A DNA stretch of 64,000 nt, taken from contig JAJEKV010000131.1 of the NCBI GenBank assembly GCA_021234155.1, positions 928,774 to 992,773 of the forward strand, written 5' to 3'. The position numbers and the translations under genes are program-made. Of the stretch, positions 3,761-49,200 are shown in pieces (the first letter of the stretch is position 1; the number at the start of each line of letters is the position of its first letter). Origin of the DNA: Isoetes taiwanensis (taxonomy: Eukaryota > Streptophyta > Lycopodiopsida > Isoetales > Isoetaceae). The notes beneath the pieces were generated by a model. That model searched no databases and had not been told where the DNA came from. It saw only the letters and a list, made by a program, of their open reading frames with translations.

Positions 3761-6579
3761 ATTTTAAAATGTATATTTTGATAATTTTCCTTCTACTTGA
3801 GATGTATTTTCTTTTTACATTAGAATTTTCCTTTGTAAGACCAATGGTCTAGGGTTGAACTTTTAGAATAGTAGAGGCATCTTAGAATATTCTTATTACA
3901 CCAGCGGGACAGAAGGCCCCGCACACCGGATAAGACTTACTTTACAAATAGCGTAACAGAACAGTAGGGTACCATTGTTGATGCCAATGCCTACATAATC
4001 TCTGCCATTTTTTGTGATATGAATTAAGTATGCAACACAATATCCTAATAAGTGAAGCGGTAGACAACTCATTAAGAGAAGAAAATAACCCACAGAAAAA
4101 ATAGTTGCCCGTGACATGGAGTTGAAAGCAGATGTTCAAATCCCTGTAGTTTGGAGTCGAAACTTGCTCAGATTCAATGCATGCGTGCGAAACAATCATG
4201 TATCCTTTGCATTAGTGTGCTTCAAGGAGGCCTGCATATTAGATATTTTTCGAGTAGATCAATAGCAAAGCTTTTAGGCACGAAGATAAATGATATTTTG
4301 CTAGAAAATATATGTGAAGCGTCATCTCCCAAAATCGGCTCATGATTGCATATGTTAAATTGCAAAAAGTCCACTTACTTTTCCACTAAGACTTGGTATT
4401 ATAGCAATATTTTGCTATCTCCATGCATGTAAATTCTACAATTGATACTGGTAAAACATCTATGGCTGATGGAAGTCAGATACCAAATGGCCTATGCAAA
4501 GTTAGCACATTTCAAACCTAGAGCGTGTATATTTTTTTTCGGGCCTTTGGATTGTGGCATAATTCATGGAATATTCTCTCTCCACGCATTCAGTCCACCC
4601 TTGTGAAGTCTTTCTGGGGTCAAACTGGCCACTATTGACCTGATTTTAAAGGGGGCGCTCGAAGACCACACACCATGGGTTAAGATAGTATAGAAGCATA
4701 TTGGTATAATACAGTATAGTACAAATAATACAATACACTACTGCACAACTCAAATATAGCAGTAGCATTCCAATATGATATGAGCCTGGAGAATCGAACC
4801 CGGTTCCAATCCAATGCTCAGGGCTTACCTGGAAATTTCGCTCCAGAAAGGATGTACAACTTCCGCTGGCCGCTCGCCTTTGTTGCTAACTGTCCAGAAG
4901 TCTGTAATCACAAATAGCAGGAAGGCATGTATCCAAAAGAAATGACTAAGATCTGTTGCTTAAAAAATTCCACCAATGACTTTCCCGCAATGCAGCTAGC
5001 AAGTCTGGTTACCCTGAATCTGGCGCTGCCCTAAACCCTCCAAGACGAAAATAAATCAAAGAGTATAGCCAGCACTCAACAATTTCCTTTCCTGAAAAAA
5101 TCACGCATAAAACTAGAGATTATGCAAACTGCATCAAGTGTATCAAGCAGAAAGAAAGTGGAGCTGCAAAATCAAAAGTCATGCAGCTAAGACAGCCGGC
5201 TGAAGAGCAGAGTGCAGAGTATAATTGTCTGGCCCAGTTTTCTTCCTCTCCTTCAATGTTGTGAGCCGATATGCTGAAATTTTGAAATTTTGGCCCTATC
5301 GCCAAAAATTGTCCCGCCATCCCGATCTGGCACTGCTCATTCCGTGACCATCTCTTTAATGTATCAGAAGGGCATGGATCGCCCTGGTAGACAAAGCGTG
5401 GATAGACAGCTCTGTCAAATTCGAAGGATTTAGCCTACTGGTCTTATATGCAAAGGGAAGACCATCCGACTCTTGTTTATGCCAAAACAAATTTGATTTT
5501 TGTGCTATCTCTTGCCATATTCTTTAAAATTAGATTCAAAATCGCCCAGAATTAGTTGACTTTATGCTTGCTAAAGACAAAGAGCAAAGTTTGGGGCAAA
5601 CTATAGAGGATTACCACCACAGAATTAACCCGATGTCAGGCCTTATTGTCTTAGCTATTACAGAGATAGCAACTCACCGGGGTTTTTCCTAGCTCAGTCC
5701 TAAGGATCACCCTCACACAAACCATAGTTTTAGTGTTCATGGACAACTTTAATGATCTTTGCAAATGAATCGACAAAACATAGATAAAACGGTCCAAGTT
5801 TGTTCTTCCAGCAGGAAAACACTGCAACAATACTATAAGTGATTTTCCTTCACAGCAAAGCAAAAGGTGCCTTTGAGCTCACCACAATGAACAACTCACT
5901 TAAATTTTCATGGTCACCGATGGATTTTGGGGACTATCCACATCCACAAGAATAAATAAGAACTTAAAGGCTCACCTCAAAGCTATAAAAGGAGGTTTGG
6001 CATTGAATGTGGTTGGAATTGAAGATGTCAAGTCGTTCCCATCAAGACTGTAGAGATGTTGGCTAGATGAAACACTTCAAAAATCTGATTCATGTGCCAT
6101 AATCAAATGCTTTGTGGTGTCTATCTGGATGCCCTCTCTCTGTTCTTCAAGTGCCATGCTTTCTTACTCTGATGTAGCAGCATGAAACAATTGGCATGAA
6201 ACAAAATGCAGGTAAAGCGTGAAACAAGTGGCTGCTTTTGTGCCGTATACACAATTCTCCAGTTTGAACATTCACTGTCTATAAACATGCAGTGTCCATT
6301 TTCAAGCAGATAACACTAGCTCGAAGTCATAAACTTGCAAGGCTTTCCGAGTAAATTATGTTCAGCAGTGAAATTATAGTGATATATGTGACTCTCATGA
6401 GCGGACAATAAGAACAGTCCTGCATCCATAAAAGTGATAAAGCTCTATATGTCTAATTCTGCTCACATAAGAAAAAAGAACACCTTTTGAAACATGGCTA
6501 GACTGTTGTGTATATACAATCAATGATTTGTCACTAGTGTTTAGGGCATCGGGGTCACAAGCTAAATTCATTGCCAAAT

Positions 6580-8041
6580 GTATATCAATGCTGTTTTATT
6601 GCATTTGTGGATGTTGTTGGATGATTTGTAGTAAAAAGATACATATATATAAATGAGCTAGCTACTACAGATACAGATTTTGAGAGTGGCGAATGATTGC
6701 ACAAAAAGGAATTGTGTTACAGGTACCTTGAGAGGGGCCTAGACAATCCTGGAGCTGTGTTGGACGGCAAATATACATCCACATTGAGGCTAGTATATGA
6801 CAATGTAAAGATTAAGCAAAGTCTTCAAAGAGATGGTCTGAGAGAAGCTTATGATCAACTTGCTGATCTTATACCCTTAAACTTTTTCACGAAATGCCTG
6901 GCAAGGTGCAGTGCCTTAGACCGCATGATTACCGCATGCGAACTCATCATCTACTGCCACTCTCCTTAAAAGACATATGATAACTGGTTCATGCGACCAT
7001 TGCAAAGAAAGCCTGCGTGGATCTACGCCCAATGCTCCAGAACCTTATAATATGAATGTTATGTTAGAACGAGAATATTCACATGTAAGAAACTCAAATA
7101 TTTGCAACTGGGCTCCACTGCTTATCTAGGTTCCATCCTTGTAACTCAGAATGATCCATTCATTCTGGTCAGGTGAACTGCCATGCACGATGTTTTTATG
7201 TCAAGCTTGTCCCAGTCAAAACGCTAATGCACTTACCTCTAGCAAATAGGAACTAAGTATGCCTTACGTAGAAAATGATTCGACGCTTACAGCTTAACTG
7301 GCCACAACAATAAAGCCTAATAACACAATACATTTCATGGAGCAAATGCACAATACAAAAGCATTTTATGAAATGGACTTGCTTTCTATAACAGTTTATG
7401 TGGGACAACTAATGATCCCCTGTGATCAATGTGGGCTCCAAGACCTTGCAACATACAGTCAAAAACTCAAGGCCCGCTTAAAAATAATTGCAGCAGGCTG
7501 AGCATAAGCCATGTAAATGAGAGTTCAATATAGGCGAACCTTCAGAGCGTAGATCAATATGGTAGATGCCTAAATCCAAAACTTGAAATGTTGAGGAACC
7601 CGTTCACGCAATCATTGGAAAAAAGGCCACTATGGATCTGAGCCCAATGCTCCAGATCCTTGAATATCAATGGCTGTGGAAATCCAATGTTAGAGACGAA
7701 AACATTTAAACATTTGCAACTGTGCTCCATCAATCAAGCATATAACAAAATGCACCTCCTAAGAGCTTTAAACAGTTGAAACTACTGAAACAACATAAAT
7801 AACGAATCTCAACAGAAATGCAAAAGGTGGGGTTACCTGCAAAAATGAACCTCAGAATGATTTAAGAAAACTGCTCTCACTTATCTTTAAATCGTCTTAG
7901 ATGCTCTCACTTATTGGTTTGCTTAGTTGAACAGCAACCAATTTAGCAACTCTCATTGTGCAGCTTATAAATAGCACTATAAATCCGAAATGAATATGTA
8001 ATAATTCATCACATCTATAAAACATTTGCCTGATATACAAT
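6580..8041. other. non-coding part of the duplicated block downstream of IFRD copy 1
   Basis: Non-coding sequence 3' of the minus-strand IFRD gene. A 90-codon plus-strand stretch at 6697-6969 is open here, but in copy 2 the matching sequence (about 30685-30990) carries insertions and does not keep the frame, so I do not call it a gene. Confidence 0.5.
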
Positions 8042-8285: not shown

Positions 8286-9623
8286 TCAATAACACTCACA
8301 ATCGTTCATGTTAAATACAGCTTGATTCCTAGCTTGAACACAGGCACGTCTTTGGCTCCTCATTTGGGTGTGTGCTTTACTGTCTTTCGAATTTGGAGAG
8401 CGATACATTCTTTTCTCTTTCGCAGTGAGAGATCTTTGTTTCTCCACTCGTGGTTCATACCCAAAGATTTCATGAAGCAGAGGGTTTTCCTGCATATGCT
8501 TCTGAAACCCCTCTGCAAGAAAATGCTTCAAGGCATTAAACTGAACTGATTGTGACCATGTGTTCACTCTCATCACATCACCATATCTGAGCTTCAGAGA
8601 TATTTCAGGGCAGACACTGTCCTCTATGCTAGATAACACTTCTCGAAATAAGCCGCGCTGTAGTGATCTTTCTTTTCTTGATCGTCCTTGCCTTCCAGAA
8701 TCAATTGACAAAAATCTTATTTGTTCAATCAAATGCTCCTCCATGTTGTCAACGGCCAACTTATTGCTTGCAGGAAAATAAGAATCTGAATCTAAAGACT
8801 CTCCATCATCAAAAGAACTTGATGTAATCACCTCCTTAGCATAAGGTTTGCTGATTTCACAAATTAAGGCAACTGCTTCGCCACAAACTTTTCTTAGAGG
8901 AGTGTCTACTGTGTCCAGCAAGGATGATAGCACAGGGAGAGCACCATGCACATGATAATTGATAACATGGGAGGGCAAAGTAGACAAAAGTAGTGACCAA
9001 CCAGATATAGCTGCAGACTTAAGAGCTGGTGATGGTTTGCTGATTCCAAGGGACTGGTCTGCATCCATGTTCCCTTCATGCTTACTAATGTCCATAAATA
9101 TTTCCATGGACCTTTCAGTTGCTGCAACGTCTTGAGCTGCAACAAACGTCAATATTGCCAAGCATTCTACTGCAGATATGCGTGAATCCTGAACCAAACC
9201 AAGCTTTGCAACGCGAACAAGATGTGCATATCCCTCATCCAACAAATGCTGTGCAATATTCCCAGACCCTACAGTCAATGCTAACAACCCAAGAGCTCTG
9301 GCTGCTAAGCATACTTCCGAGGATAATTCACGCCTTAAACAACATAAGCATTGGTGCGAAATTGTTTCATATCTTGATTCTACAAACTCAAGCATTATAT
9401 CTGTGGAAAATGCACTTACAAGTCCTTTCAAGCCTGCTACTCGAGTACTAGACCTTTTCTCATACAAATCGTCCACAAACTTCTCAAGAATTTCCCCATC
9501 TTCTTGTTGCACCTCAATCTCTTGTGTAATATCAGAATCATTATAAGATGTCGCAAAACTATCATTATCATCGTAATCGTCACGATTCTTTGAATTCTTA
9601 CTATTGTTCTTAATCTTCCCCAT
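8286..9623 (-). CDS. IFRD-family (interferon-related developmental regulator) protein, copy 1
   Basis: Encodes a complete 445-residue protein with no introns. IFRD proteins are eukaryotic ARM/HEAT-like helical proteins that act as transcriptional co-regulators; plant members have been linked to stress tolerance. Seen here: an acidic, Asn/Asp-rich N-terminus (residues 1-45), then the conserved segment starting FVDDLYEKRSSTRVAGLKGL, helical repeats with CLRRE, CLAARALGLLALT and KVCGEAVALICE, and a C-terminal IFRD motif near residues 385-435 (QENPLLHEIFGYEP, then KEKRMYRSPNS). The length fits the family. I chose the ATG at 9623 (MGKIKNN); the frame is open upstream but without an ATG. Upstream sequence is T-rich and similar to that of copy 2. 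Copy 2 at 32431-33768 differs at 14 residues, eight of them in the first 46. Lack of introns may point to a retrocopy origin; I do not know the intron layout of the parent gene. Confidence 0.92.
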   Translation of the reverse strand: MGKIKNNSKNSKNRDDYDDNDSFATSYNDSDITQEIEVQQEDGEILEKFVDDLYEKRSSTRVAGLKGLVSAFSTDIMLEFVESRYETISHQCLCCLRRELSSEVCLAARALGLLALTVGSGNIAQHLLDEGYAHLVRVAKLGLVQDSRISAVECLAILTFVAAQDVAATERSMEIFMDISKHEGNMDADQSLGISKPSPALKSAAISGWSLLLSTLPSHVINYHVHGALPVLSSLLDTVDTPLRKVCGEAVALICEISKPYAKEVITSSSFDDGESLDSDSYFPASNKLAVDNMEEHLIEQIRFLSIDSGRQGRSRKERSLQRGLFREVLSSIEDSVCPEISLKLRYGDVMRVNTWSQSVQFNALKHFLAEGFQKHMQENPLLHEIFGYEPRVEKQRSLTAKEKRMYRSPNSKDSKAHTQMRSQRRACVQARNQAVFNMNDCECY

Positions 9624-9649
9624 CTTGCTCTGCAAATAAACCTCCAAAA

Positions 9650-10775
9650 CAGTGACGTAATGCCCCTGCTGATATATGCCTCTGTATTGCTCCTCCTTGC
9701 TTTCCGAAAATTAACGATGAATGAATGGGCTCAGGTGGGTTTCTTATATCAGCGACCTTTTTCCTTTTCTATTTATACCTTTTCCTCTTTTTTTGCTATG
9801 CGTTACTATTTTTAGCTTTTCTAGTTTACCCCATTTTACCCCTTTTTTATCGCTGACTATGCCTTTTTTATTTTGCCATGCCTGCTGCATAGATATTTTG
9901 CCAAAGTCGATATGAAAGAGATATTTTGCCAAAGTCGATATGAAAAGGTTTCTGATGCCTCTGTTTCTTTGATGCTTCTGTGCTTCCCCATGTTAATGCC
10001 TCTATGCACTCTTTTGCACAACATGGCAACTAGGTCGCTGCTTCCGCCTCCATAATGGAAAATGGCTCAAGGATTCCGCTCAAGCAATCAGCTGTAGATA
10101 AGCATCAGGTCATCCTCCCAGTGCCATGTTGTGGCAATCTGGAAGTGGGTCGCCGATTCCAGACCCACTCCTGGCTCCCACCGGTCGCGGTGTTATGGTC
10201 TAAGGGCAAGTCGCGCTTGCAGGCCTTGGGACCGAAAGTTTGCTTTGGAAATGCCACCGGGTGGCCTGGGAACGTTCCAAAGAGCAGTTGCCACCTGGGG
10301 CGGCGTATAGGTTATTTTTAAATGGCATTTGCTTCGTAGGTAAAAGTGACATTTAATTAAATTATAAAGGCCCTTTTAAAACCACTCAACCATTGCCTTT
10401 TGGAGTATGAGGTGGCATCACTTGATTGGTTCAAGTGTTAAAAGGGAAATTTGAAGCCATGGCATCGTGATACAAAGCGCCCAGAACTAACAAGAATAGC
10501 TCGAATCTATACTTAAAGAGCTTGGTTTTAGCTCTAGAAAAGGCCCATCTGCCTTTTTTCACCTATTCTTGGCCCTAGTGGCTTTATAGAAGGAATTGGA
10601 GACGATTTCGGAGATCATAGTTTTTCTCTGGAGCCAAGGGATTGGAACGACCTGCTCTTCCTTGTAGCTTGATCTGCTTCTGGAGGTTTTAGACCATTTC
10701 GAATTGATTGGGAATCAACTCGACCTGTTCCGAGAAACTCCATTATTTGGTGTTGCTTATGAAGTTACTCCGTTC
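9650..10775. other. upstream flank of IFRD copy 1 and unassigned spacer
   Basis: 9650-10195 is the shared 5' flank of the duplicated IFRD gene. It is T-rich, contains a tandem AGATATTTTGCCAAAGTCGATATGAAA-like unit around 9890-9940, and should hold the promoter, though I cannot place a convincing TATA box or start site. 10200-10775 has no reading frame I recognise. It may be the left part of the LTR whose end lies in the inverted repeat that follows. Confidence 0.45.
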
Positions 10776-26979: not shown

Positions 26980-27540
26980 AAGTTGTGTGAGTTGTACTGG
27001 TTAAAAATGGAATCAATGATTGAGAACACGGCAATGCCTTAGCCTGCCTTGAACTTGCAGAACAGATCAACCTCATTTGATGTAGAATAGATATTCTTTG
27101 CCTCTTGAACGAGCTGTAACAAGAGCTCTATCGGAAACTTTAGAAAACTAAAGCCACCTCCAAGAGCTATTTCCTGGCCTTTCTCTAGCTTCCATGGCCA
27201 TTCTCATGAACTAGTTTCCACAGAGCGACCTTGAGCACAGCAGAAGAAAGAAACCGGCTTCAATAAATGAGACGTCGACCAGGTGACCGCCATTTACAGG
27301 AAATCGGAGGTTTTTAGCAGTCACCAGCATATCCTAGGGATATTCTAGCATATACCTAGGATATGCCAAAAGCCCACATAAACACGGGTTTGCCCCCCTA
27401 GGGGCAACCCAAAAAGGGTGCACTCTAGAAATACTATTTAGTACATGCACACGAACGGCGGCCAAACCATAGCTAAACCATTGAAAAAAAAATAGAAAAA
27501 CATAAAAGAAACCTCCTGTTATTTTGCTAGATATTTTAAA
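26980..27540. other. spacer between PLD zeta remnant and the second duplicated block
   Basis: No further PLD zeta exon is recognisable beyond 26973, so the gene breaks off here. 27330-27372 contains an imperfect inverted repeat around CATATCCTAGG / CCTAGGATATG, and 27395-27410 a CCCCCTAGGGG palindrome. Confidence 0.5.
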
Positions 27541-28699
27541 ATGTAGTTATAATTTTCCTTCTACTTGAGATGTATTTTCCTTTTACATTAGAATTTTCCT
27601 TTGTAAGACCAATGGTCTAGGGTTGAACTTTTGGAATAGTAGAGGCATCTTAGAATATTCTTATTACACCAGCAGGACAGAAGGCCTCGCACACCGGATA
27701 AGACTTACTTTACAAATAGCGTAACAGAACAGTAGGGTACCATTGTTGATGCCAATGCCTACATAATCTTTGCCATTTTTTGTGGTATGAAATAAGTATG
27801 CAACACAATATCCTAATACGCAAAGCGGGTGACAACTCATTAAGAGAAGAAAATAACCCACAGAAAAAATAGTTGCCCGTGACATGGAGTTGAAAGCAGA
27901 TGTTCAAATCCCTGTAGTTTGGAGTTGAAACTTGCTCAGATTCAATGCATGCTTGCGAAACAATCATGTATCCTTTGCATTAGTGTGCTTCAAGGAGGCC
28001 TGCATATTAGATATTTTTCGAGTAGATCAATAGCAAAGCTTTTAGGCACGAAGATAAATGATATTTTGCTAGAACATATATGTGAAGCGTCATCTCCCAA
28101 AATTGGCTCATGATTGCATATGTTAAATTGCAAAAAGTCCACTTACTTTTTCCACTAAGACTTGGTATTGTAGCAATATTTTGCTACCTCCATGCATGTG
28201 AATTCTACAATTGATACTGGTAAAATATCTATGTGATGGAAGTCAGATACCAAATGGCCTATGCAAAGTTAGCACATTTCAAACCTAGAGCCTGTATTAT
28301 TTTTTTTGGGCCTTTGGATTGTGGCATAATTCATGGAATATTCCCTCTCCACGCATCTTGTTCGCCCTTGTGAAGTCTTTCTGGGGTCAAACTGGCCTCT
28401 GTTGACTTGATTTTAAAGGGGGCGCTTCAAGACCACACACCATGGGTTAAGATAGTATAGAAGCATACTGGTATAATATAGTACAGTACAAATAATACAA
28501 TACACTATTGCACAACTCAAATATAGCAGTGGCATTCCAATATGATATGAGCCTCGAGAATGAAACCCCAGTTCCAATCCAATGCTGAGGGCTTACCTGG
28601 AAATTTCGGCCCGTAAAGGATGTACAATAACTTGGCCACGCTCGCCTTTGTCGCTAATTGTCCGTAAGTCCAGAATCACAAATAGGAAGGCATGTATCC

Positions 28700-29170
28700 A
28701 AAAAAAAATGACTAAGGCCCAGATTCCACAAGGTCGGCAGATTTTAATCTTGCTTGCAACAAATACCAAAGTCGTTTGATCCAAAGTGCCTAATCAGCAT
28801 TCCACGTGGTTGAAGGTAGTTTTCGGATTGAAGCTTTCTCAAATTTAGGTGGCAACTTTTCTGCGGCCCATCTTAGGGCAACATGGTCATAAAAATCCTC
28901 TTAACCGACTCCACCTCGTAAATTTCCACCTGCAGTTGGAATCCCAATTGTTGCATCTACCCGACCATCTCACGGCAACATCCCCGTCACAAAAAATCCT
29001 AGTAACCGACTCCACCTCGTGAATTTTACCCCCAGTGGGAATCCCAACAACGGCCAATTGCTTATTTGTTGCCCATTTGTCCTCAACTCCGCCCAGTGGA
29101 ATGGGCCTTACTTGTTTTCCCCGGACAACTATCCGCGCTTAAAAAATTCCACCTTCTCCTTGCACTTTCC
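28700..29170. other. insertion specific to copy 2, with internal tandem repeat
   Basis: Absent from the matching place in copy 1 (about 4925-4960). It contains a repeat of ACCGACTCCACCTCGT...GGAATCCCAA at 28901-28952 and 29001-29048. No reading frame of note. It could be a short non-autonomous element, but I could not define ends. Confidence 0.6.
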
Positions 29171-31249
29171 CGCAATGCATGCAGCTAGCAAGTCCGGTTA
29201 CCACGAATCAAGGCTGCTCTAAACCTCCAAGACGAAAATAAATCAAAGAGGTTATAGCCAAAGACTCAACAATTTCCTTACATGAAAATCGTCTCCGCCA
29301 TCCCGACCGCACCGCTCATTCCGTGACCATCTCTTTAATGTATCGGGGCGCATGGATCGCCTCGGTAGACAAAGCGTGGATAGACAAACTCTGTCAAATT
29401 TAAGGATTTAGCCTCATCGGGTCTTATATGCAAAGGGAAGACCATCCGACTCTGTTTATGCCAAAACAAATTTGATTTTTGTGCTATCTCTTGCCATATT
29501 CTCTAGAATTAGATTCAAAAATCGCCCGTAATTAGTTGGTTTTTATGCTTGCTAAAGACAAAGAGCAAAGTTTGGGGCAAAGTATAGAGGATTACCACCA
29601 CGAGAATTAAACCCCGATGTCGCCTTATTGTCTTAGCTATTACAGATAGCAACTCACCGTGGTTTTTCCTAGCTCGGATCCTAAGGATCACCCTCACACA
29701 AACCATAGTTTTAGTGTTCATGGACAACTTTAATGATCTTTGCAAATGAAGTTTTACAATCTTTTCATGCACAAAACATAGATAAACGGTCCAAGTTTGT
29801 TCTTCCAAAAGAAATCAAATCATTGGTCGCAACAAGACTATAAGTGATTTTCCTTCACAAAGAAAGCAAAAAGGTGCCTTTGAGCTCACCACAATGAACA
29901 ACTCACTTCAATTTTCATGGTCACCGATGGATTTTGGGGACTATCCACATCCACAAGAATAAATAAGAACTTAAAGGCTCACCTCAAAGCTATAAAAAGG
30001 AGGTTTGGCATTGAATGTGGTTGGAATTGAAGATGTCAAGTCGCTCCCATCAAGACGTAGAGACTTCAAAAAATGCTTTGTGGTGTCTATCCGGATGCCC
30101 TCTCTCGCTCTTCAAGTGCCATGCTTTCTTTACTCGATGTAGCAAAGATGAAACAATTGGCATGAAACAAAATGCGTGTAAAGCGTGAAACAAGTGGGTC
30201 GCTTTTTGTGCCTTATACACAATTCTCCGCTTTGAACATTCACCGCCTATAAACATGCAAGGTTCATTTTCAAGCACATAACACTAGCTCAAGTCATAAA
30301 CTTGCAAGGCTTTCCGAGTAAATTATGTTCAAGAAGTTGGAATTATAGTGGTATATGTGACTCTCATGAGCGGACAATAAGAACAAATTCCCGCATCCAT
30401 AAAAGTGATGAAGCTCTATATGTCTAATTGCTCACATAAGAAAAAAAAAGAACACGTTTTTGAAACATGGCTAGATTGTGTATATACAATCAATGATTTG
30501 TCACTAGTGTTTAGGCATCGATTCACTGCCTTATTTTGTATGGGTAAATTCATTGCCAAATGTATATCAATGCTGTTTTATTGCGTTTGTGGATGTTGTT
30601 GGATGATTTGTAGTAAAAAGATACATATATAAAAATGAGCTAGCTACTACAGATATGATTTTGAGAGTGGCTAATGATTGCACAAAAAGGAATTGTGTTA
30701 CTGTGTACCTTGAGAGGGGCCTAGACAATCCTCGAGTCTGGTTGGACGGGTAAATGTGTCCATGATCATATTTGCAGACTTGGTTTAGGCAAATATACAT
30801 CCACATTGAGGCTAGTATATGACAATGTAAAGATTTGTAAGAAGCAAGCAAAGTCTTCAAAGAGATGGTTTGAGAGAAGCTTATGATCAACTTGCTAATC
30901 TTATACCCTTAAACTTTTCACTTAAATGCTCGGCAAGGTGCAAAGGCCTTTAGACCGCATGATTACCGCATGCTTTTAACTCATCATCTATCGCCACTCT
31001 CCTTAAAAGACATATGATAACCGGGTTCATGCGACCATTGCAAAGAAAGTGCGTGGATCTACGCCCAATGCTGCCTTAACCTTATAATATGAATGTTATG
31101 TTAGAACGAGAATATTCACATGTAAGAAACTCAAATATTTGCAATGGGCTCCACCGCTTATCTAGGTTCCATCCTTGTAACTCGTAATGATCCATTCATT
31201 CCGGGTCGTGAACCGCCATGCACGATGTTTTTATGTGAAGTTTGTCCCA

Positions 31250-32187
31250 CCAAAACGCTAATGCACTTACCTCTAGCAAATAGGAACTAAGTATGCCTTA
31301 CGTAGAAAATGATTCGACGCTTACAGCTTAACTGGCCACAACAATAAAGCCTAATAACACAATACATTTCATGGAGCAAATGCACAATACAAAAGCATTT
31401 TATGAAATGGACTTGCTTTCTATAACAGTTTATGTGGGACAACTAATGATCCCCTGTGATCAATGTGGGCTCCAGGACCTCGCAACATACAGTCAAAAAC
31501 TCAAGGCTCGCTTAAAAATAATTGCAGCAGGCTGAGCATAAGCCATGTAAATGAGAGTTCAATATAGGCGAACCTTCAGAGCGTAGATCAATATGGTAGA
31601 TGCCTAAATCCAAAACTTGAAATGTTGAGGAACCCATTCACGCAATCATTGGAAAAAAGGCCACTATGGATCTGGGCCCAATGCTCCAGATCCTTGAATA
31701 TCAATGGCTGTGGAAATCCAATGTTAGAGACGAAAACATTTGCAACTGTGCTCCATCAATCAAGCATATAACAAAATGCACCTCCTAAGAGCTTTAAACA
31801 GTTGAAACTACTGAAACAACATAAAGGAGAATCTCAACAGAAATGCAAAAGGTGACCTGCAAAAATGAACCCCAGAATGATTTAAGAAAACTGCTCTCAC
31901 TTATCTTTAAATCGTCTTAGATGCTCTCACTTATCTACAAGAATTCTTTAAATCAACTTAGATGCTCCGATTCAAATCCTTGTACTTCCTGCAGTCTGTA
32001 TTAAATTATCCAAGCATTTAAATCAAGCTTTAAACTGAACTAGACAACTGTTAGCAACTTTGGTTTGCTTAGTTGAACAGCGACCAATTTAGCAACTCTC
32101 ATTGTGCAGCTTATAAATAGCACTATAAATCCGAAATGAATATGTAATAATTCATCACATCTATAAAACATTTGCCTGATATACAAT
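31250..32187. other. non-coding 3' flank of IFRD copy 2
   Basis: Nearly identical to 7210-8041 except for an extra piece of about 125 bases at about 31935-32060. The extra piece contains another copy of TTTAAATC(A/G)..CTTAGATGCTC, so it looks like a local duplication. No gene seen. Confidence 0.55.
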
Positions 32188-43575: not shown

Positions 43576-45136
43576 TGTGACGCCCCTACTCGTAGTACTG
43601 GAGTGTCACGGTGCTCTACGTGCCGAAACGGGAGATTCTTCCCCACACACCAGCTCCATCGCGTCTGGGCCCTCCGCATCGCACGTAGCGAGTCACCGAT
43701 TAGGAAGAGTGAAGGTGTCATTCTACCTGTCTCCCTCAGGGGCCTACCCTAGTCATGGGCGTAAACATACATGTCGCATATTCAACAGGATCCTCTCCAT
43801 CCACCCAGAGGGTGGTATATCAACATCTCAGACAGACATAGGCTGGTCAAAGACATCACATGGGAATCCTACCCAAGGCTCGGACTCAAGGGGTGGACTA
43901 CTTTGGCAGGTCTCGAGTTCATTGCGCATGTAATTCATGGCAATGGATTTGGCATGGCATAAGAACATGGCATAGGGTTGTCCATTCCATCCGCCCCCAT
44001 TGCACACTTTGAGTAGAGTAGGTCGGTGCGTTGGGACCGACCGAGTTCACGGGATGCATAGCCAAGGGCTATCTTGTCTCATCCCTCCCCGCCCGGGATG
44101 GGGCAGGTAGGGATCACTCCCTCCCGAGATCTACATGCTGACTCCAGGTGACCTAGAGGGCCACCGCCTCAGATTTGAACCCACCGGAAAGTGTACACCA
44201 CTCACTTTGCAAAGAGCCCATGCCTTACCCGCAAGAGACTCGCTGGTAAGCCATTAGACCTAGTCACAATGATCCTGTGAGGGCCTTACACACCTGTGGG
44301 GACTGCTCAAGAGTCAACATGAACCTCCTTCTTAGCTCCCCCCCCCTTCACCCACAAACTGTGTGTGGTTTTGTACACAAAGTCGAATCTACAAGCATTG
44401 TGCTAGAGAGGCTACTCTAGGAGCATCAACTACAAGCTTTAGGGCCTCTACCCCCTTCCCAATACAAGGAGTTCACAGAGATACATCATCCAAATACATC
44501 ATCGTAAGAGCTAAAGAACTAGATCTAATCATAGAGTTAGGTTCTTTAGTTAGTGTCCTGAGATCTACTACATCTAGATAGTTTGGAGGGCAATTTAATA
44601 GTCTAAACCCACCGATTCTATGACTAGAAGCGGTTTAAGCTATTAAATTGACCAAATACCGATCCTTGAGTGGCTCCTCCCGACCGAGTTCAACCATCCC
44701 TGCCGAAATGAGCCAATTCGGGGAACCGATGGGCAGTCTAAGGCTGCCCTGGGAGGCGGTTTTGGCTCCGGGCAGCCAAAACCGAGCTCTAAAACCCTAA
44801 GGATCTAAAAAACTAGCAAGCTAGGGTTTTCCCTACCCTAAATAGACATGGGGTTTAGGCTAGGGTTTCCACCACCCAATTTGGCATGTGGGATAATTGG
44901 AAAGGCCCCACTTGCCTTTAATGGCTAGGTGGCAAAATGCCAACATGGAAAGGTGTGCCCTCATTAATGTGCACATGTGCACATTAATAATATATGAACA
45001 CTCCTAGCAAGTTGCCCCTAGGGCTACTTAATTGCTATCCGCCATGCATACACGCCGGTTTGAGGGCGTGGTAATGCTGCGATTTGGCAAAGTAAAGATA
45101 CGCCCCGGACCGTGATATCGCGGCCGGAACGCCACA
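43576..45136 (-). repeat. 3' LTR of the nested element
   Basis: On the minus strand it starts TGTGGCGTTCCGGCC, right after the polypurine tract, and ends GGGGCGTCACA. It is 1561 bp, against 1548 for the other LTR of the same element. Confidence 0.88.
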
Positions 45137-45150
45137 TTCTCCCCACCTTG
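45137..45150 (-). other. polypurine tract of the nested element
   Basis: The minus strand reads CAAGGTGGGGAGAA directly before the LTR start TGTGGCG. The equivalent site of the outer element is 63321-63334. Confidence 0.7.
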
Positions 45151-46240
45151 AAATGATGTCGCCCCGCAGAGATCGCGGGTCTCCCCACCTTGGGATCTTC
45201 CTAATCGCAACCGCAATCAACGTGGATGGCAATACAATATAATAGTTATACATTTACCAGATTACCCTAAGGTAATATTTTTAAAACATTATCACGCCAT
45301 CATACTATGGAATACTTAACAATTCACAACATCATTAAACAAGGTATTCACTATCTTAAGTTAGACAAAATTTCAACATTTCATATCTATAATTATTGTC
45401 CGAGGTATTTTCATTCCTTGCAACACATTCCAACAAACTTGTGTTGTAAGTCTTCGTGAGCTCGACCTCCTTTTGCCCTTCTGAGCCCCACCGCCTGCAG
45501 TGGGTCGACACTAACGTTAGTACCCTTTTTAATTATTTAATAAATTTTGGTTTATATGGTGACCAACCCACCTATCTACATGAATGCATGGCTAATCCTC
45601 CGGTAGGAAGAGGATGAATCTTCCATAATGGTCGTGGAGACAGCGGTACGCCCTATATGCCTATATGCATTTCATGCCTACACCTCTAGTTGCCCGGTGG
45701 AGGATATCCTTCTTTTGGGGGGGCTTGAAGGATGGATTCCTCCTATCAAAGCATATATGGGGCTAAAGGTGCTTTTCCCTATCAATGCATTCCTTAATGA
45801 CCTCCTTTCTTTCGAGGTCGCCTACTTCCGTGGATGGAAGTAGGCTTTTCTAATCTACCTTCTCCTCGCCTAAATGGAAACGCCGGGTCATGCCTACATT
45901 GACATTACACCGCCCTAGAGATCACCAAGTAGTGGTCTCATCATCGGTAGAATAGCCAAGATGCGACCCATACTGGGCATAGGTTGCATGGGAGATTAAT
46001 CTATACAAGAATTAACCTTACACAAATCGACATGCTCGAAAGCCATTTCTTGGAGATTTCGTCAGCCCCATTGTTCCATAAATCGTGGGTGCTTTACCAA
46101 ATCCTTCTTAAAGCACCACGCCAAGGCTCTTCCATCGCAAAGTGCTTCCATTTGACTAAGTATTGAGGAACTCGAGCCTCCTTGTCTTCTTGAAAGCTTT
46201 ATCAAGAATCATTTTCGAACTATTTCCATGCTCCTCCGAT
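45151..46240 (-). other. 3' untranslated region of the nested gypsy element
   Basis: Between the end of pol and the LTR, with no reading frame of note. It contains a purine run GAAAGAAAGGAGGTCATTAA at about 45797-45816, which recurs in the outer element at about 62691-62709 and could be an additional polypurine tract. Confidence 0.6.
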
Positions 46241-49200
46241 ATTTCAACAACATTGGAGTGTCCAAGATCATTCTGATTTGGAGTATGCTTCTTCAACAAA
46301 CTCACGTGGAAGACCTTATGAATCTTTTTAGGTGGCCGGCAATTCCAACTTGTAGGATTGATTACCTACTCTCTTGATTATTCTCAAGGGTCCAGCCCAC
46401 CTTGGAGCAAGCTTCTTTGCAATTGCCAATCCTCGAGCCACTGCCTATTCACCTTTATCTTGAGCCATACATCATCTCCAACTTTGAACTCTCCATTGCT
46501 TGATGCTTGCCTGGCGATGCTTTTCGGAGGCTTCTTGTCGCTAGCAGATAACCTCGAACTTCTTCCGCCGTGATATCGCCAACATCTCACCCAAACTTCT
46601 ACTTTGACACTGGGTTGTGCTAATTAATCCTGAGTTAGGCAATCGATAGCCATAATTGATCATAAATGGGCTACATTTGGGGATGATTCCCGCTTGGTGC
46701 TATTGTATGCAACCCACCAAGTGAATAAATTCTTCCACATACTTTTGCTTATTCCGATATAGTTTTAACATCTTCTAAGATCCCGTTGGTCCGCCTCCGT
46801 CCGCCATCCATCCGTCTGAGGATGATACGCGGCTCATGGATAGCTTGGTCTCAAATCGTCGCGAAGAGGTCTTGCCAAAAGGCACTCATGAACCGGATCC
46901 TGGTTTGAGATAATCTCCCCTTGGCATGCCATGAAGCCCCAAGATCTCTTTGGTGAAGAGCTTTGTCAGATCCATAGTCTGTACATTGGTCCGCAAGGCA
47001 CAAAATGTGCCATCTTGACAACAACTTGTCGACCACCACTACCATCAAGGCATCCTTGCCTCTCACTCTTCTTGGGAGTCCTGTGATGAAATCCATGTCG
47101 ATTACCTCCCACTTAGCGTTTGGCACCGCTTAGTGGCTCCTAATGCCCCCTGGAATTGAAGCTGCTCCCTTCGTCTGGCGGCATAGTCGACATTCCTTGA
47201 TGTAGCGAGCTATTTGCTTCTTCATTCCTCGCCAATAATAGTCGCAAGACTTTGAAATATGTTTTCATGAATCGCATGGCCAGCCTATTGGGCTGTTGTG
47301 TCATGGAGGATCAACTTCCTTATTACCGATGATTTGTGCACGCACAACTTGTTCTTATGGTATAACAGGTTGCTTTCCTTCTTATAATGCTTGAAGGCCT
47401 CCCGCTCTTTATCCGTTTCTAGCCTCCTTAGAGAGGCTTGCCCATACTTCCCTCGAAACCCACATCCGCTGGCAAGGACTCTTCAATCTTCTTACCAAAG
47501 TCATTGGAGAGTCGAAATTGCATTGCAATGCACTCTAGTTGTCGAGGGGATGCCTTGAAAGCGCATCTGCTACCACATTGAGCTTCCCGCTTGTAGACTA
47601 TATCAAAGTCATATTCTTCGAGGAACTCCATCCATCTCCCGTTGCTGGGATTAAAGGTGTGGTTGCGTGAATACATATTGGAGGCTCGATGGTCGGTATC
47701 CAATTGGAACTTCCTTCCCAAGAGATAGTGCCTCCATATTCTTAATGCCCCGACAGCGCCAAGCAATTCTGATCGTCGCGTTGGGCGGCGTGTCGTCGTT
47801 CATCTTTAAAGGAATCATGCGTACCACCGCACGGCTCTTCTTGCATAAGCCTTTGCTTTTTGTGGCTATCTTACTGCATACATTTGCTACAAGCTTATCT
47901 TTCTCGAGGGTGCAAAGGCAAGATAAGGAGAGCCGTCGAGGAGCTTCTTTCAACAATTCAAACCTTTTGGGCTTTCACATTGCCAATGCTCTACCCAATC
48001 TTTCACCTTCTACGCCCCGTCCGGTGCACGTTAGCGGGGCTGCTATCTTAACAAAGTTCTTCCGCGAACTTCTGTAGTACCACTGCTAGGCCAAGAAAAC
48101 TTACGACCTGCGTGCACATTCGCCCGTGCCCGGCCCTTTGAATCAACGCCTCAATCTTGGCGGGGGTCGGTCCGAGGATGCCTTACTGCCAGATCACATG
48201 ACCAAGGTATTCCACCTTCTGTTCTTGGTGGCGCCGACAACGAAGGCGTACAACCGGTGCCTCTTCAACTTCTCTAGCACCCTTCTTAAGTGTTGCACGC
48301 GTGCTCTTCAAAGGGATCTCGCTTATACACCAAAAATGTCATCAAAGAAAACAATCACAAAGGTGTCCGGGAACTCCCTCAAGATATCGATTCATGAGCC
48401 TCATGAACGCTAAGTGGGGCATTTGATAAGCCTAAAAGGCATCACCGTGAACTCATAATGCCCATACCGCCGTCAGGCTGGGTCTTGTGGATATCTTCCT
48501 CCTTTATCCGGGTATCGATGATAACCTGACCTTAAGTCGATTTTTGAGAAGATCTTTGCTCCTTGAAGCTGATCCATCAAGTCGCCCGATCTTGGAAGCG
48601 CATACTTGTTCTTAATGGTGTGCTTATTCAACTGCCTATAGTCTATGCACATCCTCAAGGATCCATCCTTCTTCTTGACAAAAAGAATGGGCGCCTCCAA
48701 ACGTAGACACTAGGTCTAATGAAACCTAGGTCGAAAGCTCACGCAGAATCGCTTCTTCAGCTCAGGCAACTCTAGCGTTGTCATTCTATATATGAGCCTT
48801 GCTTGTAGGCTTTGTTCGGTTCGAAAGTGCTTTATCGCGACCTCGACTCCTATAAGGAGGGAGCTGCTTGATCTCATCCTCGAAAGAGATCGTTGGAACT
48901 CCGTGATCAACTTAGCTATTTGCTTCGGCAGCCTTAAGCTGACATCTTGTCTTCTTTGCTTCCTTCCAATTCGCGCTAATCTCCGCTTGAAGATGTATGC
49001 TACTTGCTCACTCTTGATGCACTTGAACAGTAGTTTTAGAAGACATGCACCTTTGCATGATGATGGGAACAACTTCTTTACCGTTATCTCAATGATCTTG
49101 CCGTTCGGGTGTTGGGAAGGTCACCTTCCGCTTCCACAATGCGATAATGGCCCCTCGGCTATCCAAGGTACTCCATACCTATTATCAAGTCAGATTTGGC

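Follow-up and report, generated by a model that had tools for sequence, protein, structure and literature searches.

Nanopore consensus errors that gather at short sequence motifs have been described in bacteria. In a Klebsiella benchmark of the then-current ONT basecallers, Dcm sites (CCWGG) held about 70% of the consensus errors (Wick et al. 2019, PMC6591954), and in Listeria such errors were located at GCWGC and GCTGG and were erased by whole-genome amplification (Chiou et al. 2023, PMC10687267). For native plant DNA, a lower nanopore accuracy has been ascribed to methylation or other modifications outside the training data (PMC9749173, PMC7501810). The changes at CAG and CTG (together CWG) described here appear close to the Dcm errors of Enterobacteriaceae as presented in the consulted part of the benchmark: 5-methylcytosine (5mC) in a palindrome with a CWG core, read by a model untrained on the modification, gives systematic errors that withstand consensus. 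They differ in affecting CWG generally, in occurring in a plant and in being patchy, and the comparison covers the motif, the persistence through consensus and the training of the model. The Listeria errors, in the corresponding excerpt, share the consensus level and the CAG/CTG-centred motifs, but those motifs are bacterial and five bases long. The loss of accuracy in native plant DNA is likewise ascribed to methylation, though the excerpts of those two reports name no CHG-specific substitution pattern. Among the matches listed, judged by titles and the first lines of abstracts, none deals with nanopore consensus errors specific to CHG in plants, which does not imply that they are absent from print.

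The window, that is, the whole stretch of 64,000 nucleotides that was analysed, is C943:928774-992773 of the 1.66-Gb assembly of Isoetes taiwanensis (G000). As the earlier note on this DNA had claimed, two of its blocks align as copies, at ~3.76-9.85 kb (copy 1) and ~27.53-34.03 kb (copy 2). The same contig carries a third copy near 1.79 Mb (L001, C943:1786200-1796100). Copies 1 and 3 served as referees, by which changes private to copy 2 were polarised, and sites at which the two referees disagree were dropped from the polarised counts. The features are collected in Table 1. The counterpart of the IFRD-like reading frame in copy 1, at 8286-9647, matches PF05004 with an E value of 2.5e-61. The garbled stretch of copy 2 is very probably an error of the assembly consensus, not a biological feature.

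Table 1. Features of the window that bear on the altered CAG and CTG sites
Feature	Start	End	Strand	Basis or remark
Copy 1, no signature	5305	9849	.	Alignment, polarised counts; 54 CWG at 5305-7212
Garbled CAG/CTG stretch of copy 2	28612	31250	.	Broken by the insertion, whose first part has intact CWG
Dispersed-repeat insertion of ~420 bp, copy 2 only	28717	29136	.	Alignment; not in copies 1 and 3
Clean part of copy 2, IFRD-like gene included	31251	34028	.	0/71 polarised CWG changed
IFRD-like gene open reading frame, copy 2	32431	33849	-	ORF
Repeat-rich, CWG-depleted region	36000	64000	.	CWG observed/expected 0.58, CpG 0.76
Dispersed repeat copy, garbled CWG	45114	47755	-	29 CWG; shuffle mean 78.2
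Same repeat again, in inverse orientation to 45114-47755, garbled	60765	63354	+	32 CWG; shuffle mean 69.2

Between 29285 and 31250, 48 of the 49 polarised CWG of copy 2 are changed (CAG 22/22, CTG 26/27), compared with 0 of 71 between 31251 and 34028. Other trinucleotides without CG are changed at 271/1620 in the first interval, where part of the 271 overlaps changed CWG, and at 39/2206 in the second; the comparison with CWG in the first interval gives a Fisher p of ~6e-35. CCG and CGG are changed at 3/12 in the damaged zone and at 1/5 in the clean zone. The systematic nature of the change, which had been put at 15 sites or more, is borne out, and the number itself was understated. The intactness of CAG and CTG in the flank was described correctly, and the count by trinucleotide, named beforehand as a possible refutation, returned a strong CWG excess. 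This concentration of changes at a short methylation motif is of the kind found in modification-mediated nanopore consensus errors, with an excess away from CWG remaining. Dinucleotide shuffling of the copy 2 sequence at 29285-31250 gave 52.0 CWG on average over 500 rounds and never fewer than 35; the actual sequence holds 10, one of them the retained polarised site. Nowhere in the window is there a longer run free of CWG than at 29643-30526, inside the garbled stretch. The 54 CWG of copy 1 at 5305-7212 compare with a shuffle mean of 64.5, and 31 of 500 shuffles were as low.

Copies 1 and 3 themselves show none of this pattern. In the clean zone the changes private to either referee are unremarkable (5/76 and 7/78 CWG); in the damaged zone they number 1/2 in each, the two CWG shared there by copy 2 and the other referee being too few for a test. 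When copies 1 and 3 are compared directly, 6/55 CWG of copy 1 and 4/53 of copy 3 differ, appearing in the other copy as TTG, CTA, CAA, CGG or a gap, mostly changes of C-to-T type or gaps. Among columns that lie over 4 bases away from every CWG, 91/1300 differ in the damaged zone versus 18/1685 in the clean zone. This excess may come from the usual divergence of intergenic DNA, from CHH methylation or from misalignment; a reading error confined to CWG leaves it unexplained.

The right edge of the garbling is sharp. Relative to copy 1, 10/10 CWG are changed at 31021-31248 and the 11/11 listed at 31324-31687 are intact, which places the edge between 31248 and 31324, within ~76 bases. To the left, 6/20 copy 1 CWG differ in copy 2 at 27532-28540, and three of the four that were spelled out are of C-to-T type. 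The CWG at 28553 and 28587 are changed, that at 28597 is intact, and the six copy 1 CWG at 28612-28683 are all changed in copy 2, one of them as CTG>TTG, so that the left edge lies near 28.55-28.61 kb. The insertion downstream of this edge has inverted ends (AAGGCCC/GGGCCTT) with ACT on either flank, and from its sequence it looks like a small, MITE-like DNA transposon. In comparison with five other genomic copies, it keeps CWG in its first part and has lost several in its second. Copy specificity may have arisen by methylation spreading out of the insertion, an idea with which the intact CWG in the insertion's first part sit awkwardly.

The products in copy 2 were tallied after setting aside four sites of each class that could not be resolved, one intact CTG and one CAG near the end of the alignment. 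A new CG is present at 23 of the 39 resolved sites, more often for CTG (16/22, as CCG, TCG or CG) than for CAG (7/17, as CGG, CGT or CGA). A second type is CAGC>CAAAG, and there are also small deletions and complex products, many sites being too complex to resolve. The CAG>CGT examples of the earlier note are present at 28612, near 29525, at 30175 and at 31183; its products of CGT and CCG type were thus seen, within a spectrum that is wider than it described. Decay by cytosine deamination, whether RIP-like or at CHG, does not describe these products, which are rarely plain C-to-T or G-to-A and, where resolved, mostly contain a CG, consist of CAA-type runs or are indels. Both the CG-gaining and the CAAAG type are seen again at unrelated loci, CAGC>CAAAG in two dispersed-repeat copies (L007 and L010) and in 5S units. 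A strand asymmetry of the CAA-type product was considered as proof of single-strand reads and rejected. The product is found at 3/21 CAG versus 1/27 CTG in copy 2 and at 7/111 versus 8/144 in the repeat copies; in the 5S units the figures are 22/68 versus 0/68, where strand and site context are inseparable.

The change had been described for one stretch of the block, but it is seen also at 36-64 kb of the window, in some but not all repeat copies on other contigs and in many 5S units. For the dispersed repeat, the two window copies were compared with 8 of the 39 other places scored. CWG number 66, 61 and 69 in three clean copies (L008, L009 and L014), 49 each in L011 and L012, and 24, 19 and 30 in garbled ones (L007, L010 and L013), with 32 and 29 in the window copies. 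L007 retains 20% of the CWG of L008 but 84% of its other trinucleotides without CG. CpG rises to 126 in L007 and 123 in L010 versus 97-99 in the three clean copies, a gain that is not universal among garbled copies (107 in L013, 108 and 93 in the window copies). The garbled state is regional in part: the ratio of observed to expected CWG is 0.44 and 0.97 in the pieces beside L007, 0.54 and 0.69 beside L010, and 0.81 and 0.90 beside the clean L009. Within the window, CWG stands at 1.15 and CpG at 0.48 of expectation at 1-28.6 kb, and at 0.32 and 0.76 at 28.6-31.25 kb. The 10 kb to the left of the window (L015) have CWG at 0.71 of expectation, with low patches. For 6-kb pieces chosen arbitrarily, one from each of eight contigs, the CWG ratio is 0.73-1.43 in seven and 0.50 in the eighth (L026, C907:15000001-15006000). 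L026, which has CpG at 0.75, lies far from the window and may be garbled as well. L005 (C1026:3594600-3602300) belongs to a cluster on C1026 of relatives of the copy 2 stretch, and one of these, L5b, has milder CWG changes.

For the 5S rRNA genes, 42 hits gave 34 distinct units of full length once overlap duplicates were removed, the reference unit (C986) included. Changes affect 104/170 CWG cells, 342/1258 trinucleotides near CWG and 507/2550 far from it; the background away from CWG is high because many units are degenerate or poorly aligned. At the second CAG site, CACCAGGAC, CAG is read in the reference unit alone of all 34, which leaves the true base in doubt. A recount that omits both this site and the reference unit finds 71/132 CWG cells changed versus 507/2475 far from CWG. 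The site TTCTGATG reads TTCGATG in 18/34 units. On contig C13, 5 of the 30 units retain all four certain sites and 3 retain none. Clean and garbled units are interspersed in the array units on C13, C907 and C986 (L036-L043), and the garbled ones show CTG>CG or CCG and CAG>CAAG or CAAAG. The same error is thus found at unrelated loci that bear the motif, as in modification-mediated nanopore consensus error, and the CWG-type changes in 5S units and some repeat copies fit a reading error across the assembly better than a property of one locus.

In plants, the symmetrical, CMT3-type portion of CHG methylation falls on CWG. The sequence of events would begin with native plant DNA sequenced by nanopore, in which the 5mC signal in CAG and CTG was decoded by a base-calling model untrained on non-CpG methylation. 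Knowing methylated C mainly in CpG, such a model would write CG or a short run of A, and an error common to most reads would survive consensus. A model trained on CG would explain both the main products and why CCG and CGG, which already hold CG, are spared. During any polishing with accurate reads, those of copy 2 would perhaps match the clean paralogues more closely, and copy 2 itself would go uncorrected; clean repeat copies next to garbled ones would likewise reflect incomplete polishing. The IFRD-like gene beside the garbled stretch would be clean because gene bodies are normally without CHG methylation, and a clean gene adjoining garbled intergenic and repeat DNA seems in keeping with CHG methylation. 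Since copies 1 and 3 are clean despite their close similarity to copy 2, copy-specific methylation or copy-specific polishing is required, and either could explain their escape. These clean copies count against an artefact, as do the excess away from CWG, the intact start of the insertion and the gain of CG at only 7/17 CAG; the absence of a clear CpG gain in L013 and the repeat copies of the window, the complex products and the high 5S background weigh on the same side. The earlier note's reading as a consensus error is supported by the CWG count, by the recurrence in 5S units and repeats and by the published errors at CCWGG, GCWGC and GCTGG. The counts themselves show the CWG specificity, the products, the sharp right edge and the recurrence at other loci; methylation, the nanopore origin, the way the model errs and failed polishing are presumed.

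Surplus changes outside CWG and the many small indels would be expected if the stretch were poorly covered and held ordinary random long-read errors. Such errors may account for part of the off-CWG remainder, but they would not hit 48 of 49 CWG while sparing most other sites, and as an account of the whole stretch they are very improbable; differing homopolymer runs, 3/11 in the damaged zone (two of them inside rearranged stretches) versus 1/12 in the clean zone, are too few to weigh. Gene conversion of the middle of copy 2 from a diverged paralogue naturally without CWG would have many possible donors, the stretch having at least 57 matches in the genome, itself included (40 of 131 first-look candidates were scored). 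However, apart from the stretch itself, no match exceeds 93% identity among those scored, the best two long scored matches are copies 1 and 3 at 86%, and the aligned paralogues mostly retain CWG, L5b being partly garbled. On these scored matches, a conversion event is very hard to credit.

A mutational process that targets CWG, through deamination of adenine next to a methylated C or faulty repair of 5mC, could also have rewritten copy 2 and some repeats, and the copy- and locus-specific nature of the changes agrees with it. CTG>CCG and CAG>CGG are indeed expected from A-to-G at the middle base, but the products also include CGT, CAAAG and small indels. Nor would mutation readily strike all but one site up to so narrow an edge or leave the 5S units of C13 with anything from none to all four sites intact, and the CWG differences between copies 1 and 3 are mostly of C-to-T type or gaps. 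Such a mutational origin is thus extremely unlikely, and there is next to no chance that a real, sharp-edged hypermutation directed at CWG has run across copy 2, some repeat copies and many 5S rRNA genes of this plant.

If the reading as a consensus error is true, part of the assembly has false sequence at CHG sites, biased towards lost CAG and CTG and often towards false CpG, and the ages of repeats, 5S variants, the divergence of duplicates and some gene models would be biased with it. A scan for CWG depletion, often with a gain of CpG, requires no reads and could point to similarly affected stretches when applied to further plant assemblies. The CWG signature may also preserve, at low resolution, which copies carried CHG methylation in the sample.

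Family matches across the assembly include 66 to chlorophyll a/b-binding protein, which mark it as a plant, and 12 to DNA methylase; both are in line with an error at plant methylation sites. The right neighbour of the window (L016, C943:992774-1001000) is all N, either a gap in the assembly or sequence that was withheld. At 9891-9945, copy 1 carries a perfect 28-bp direct duplication, where copy 2, in its aligned part, has the unit once.
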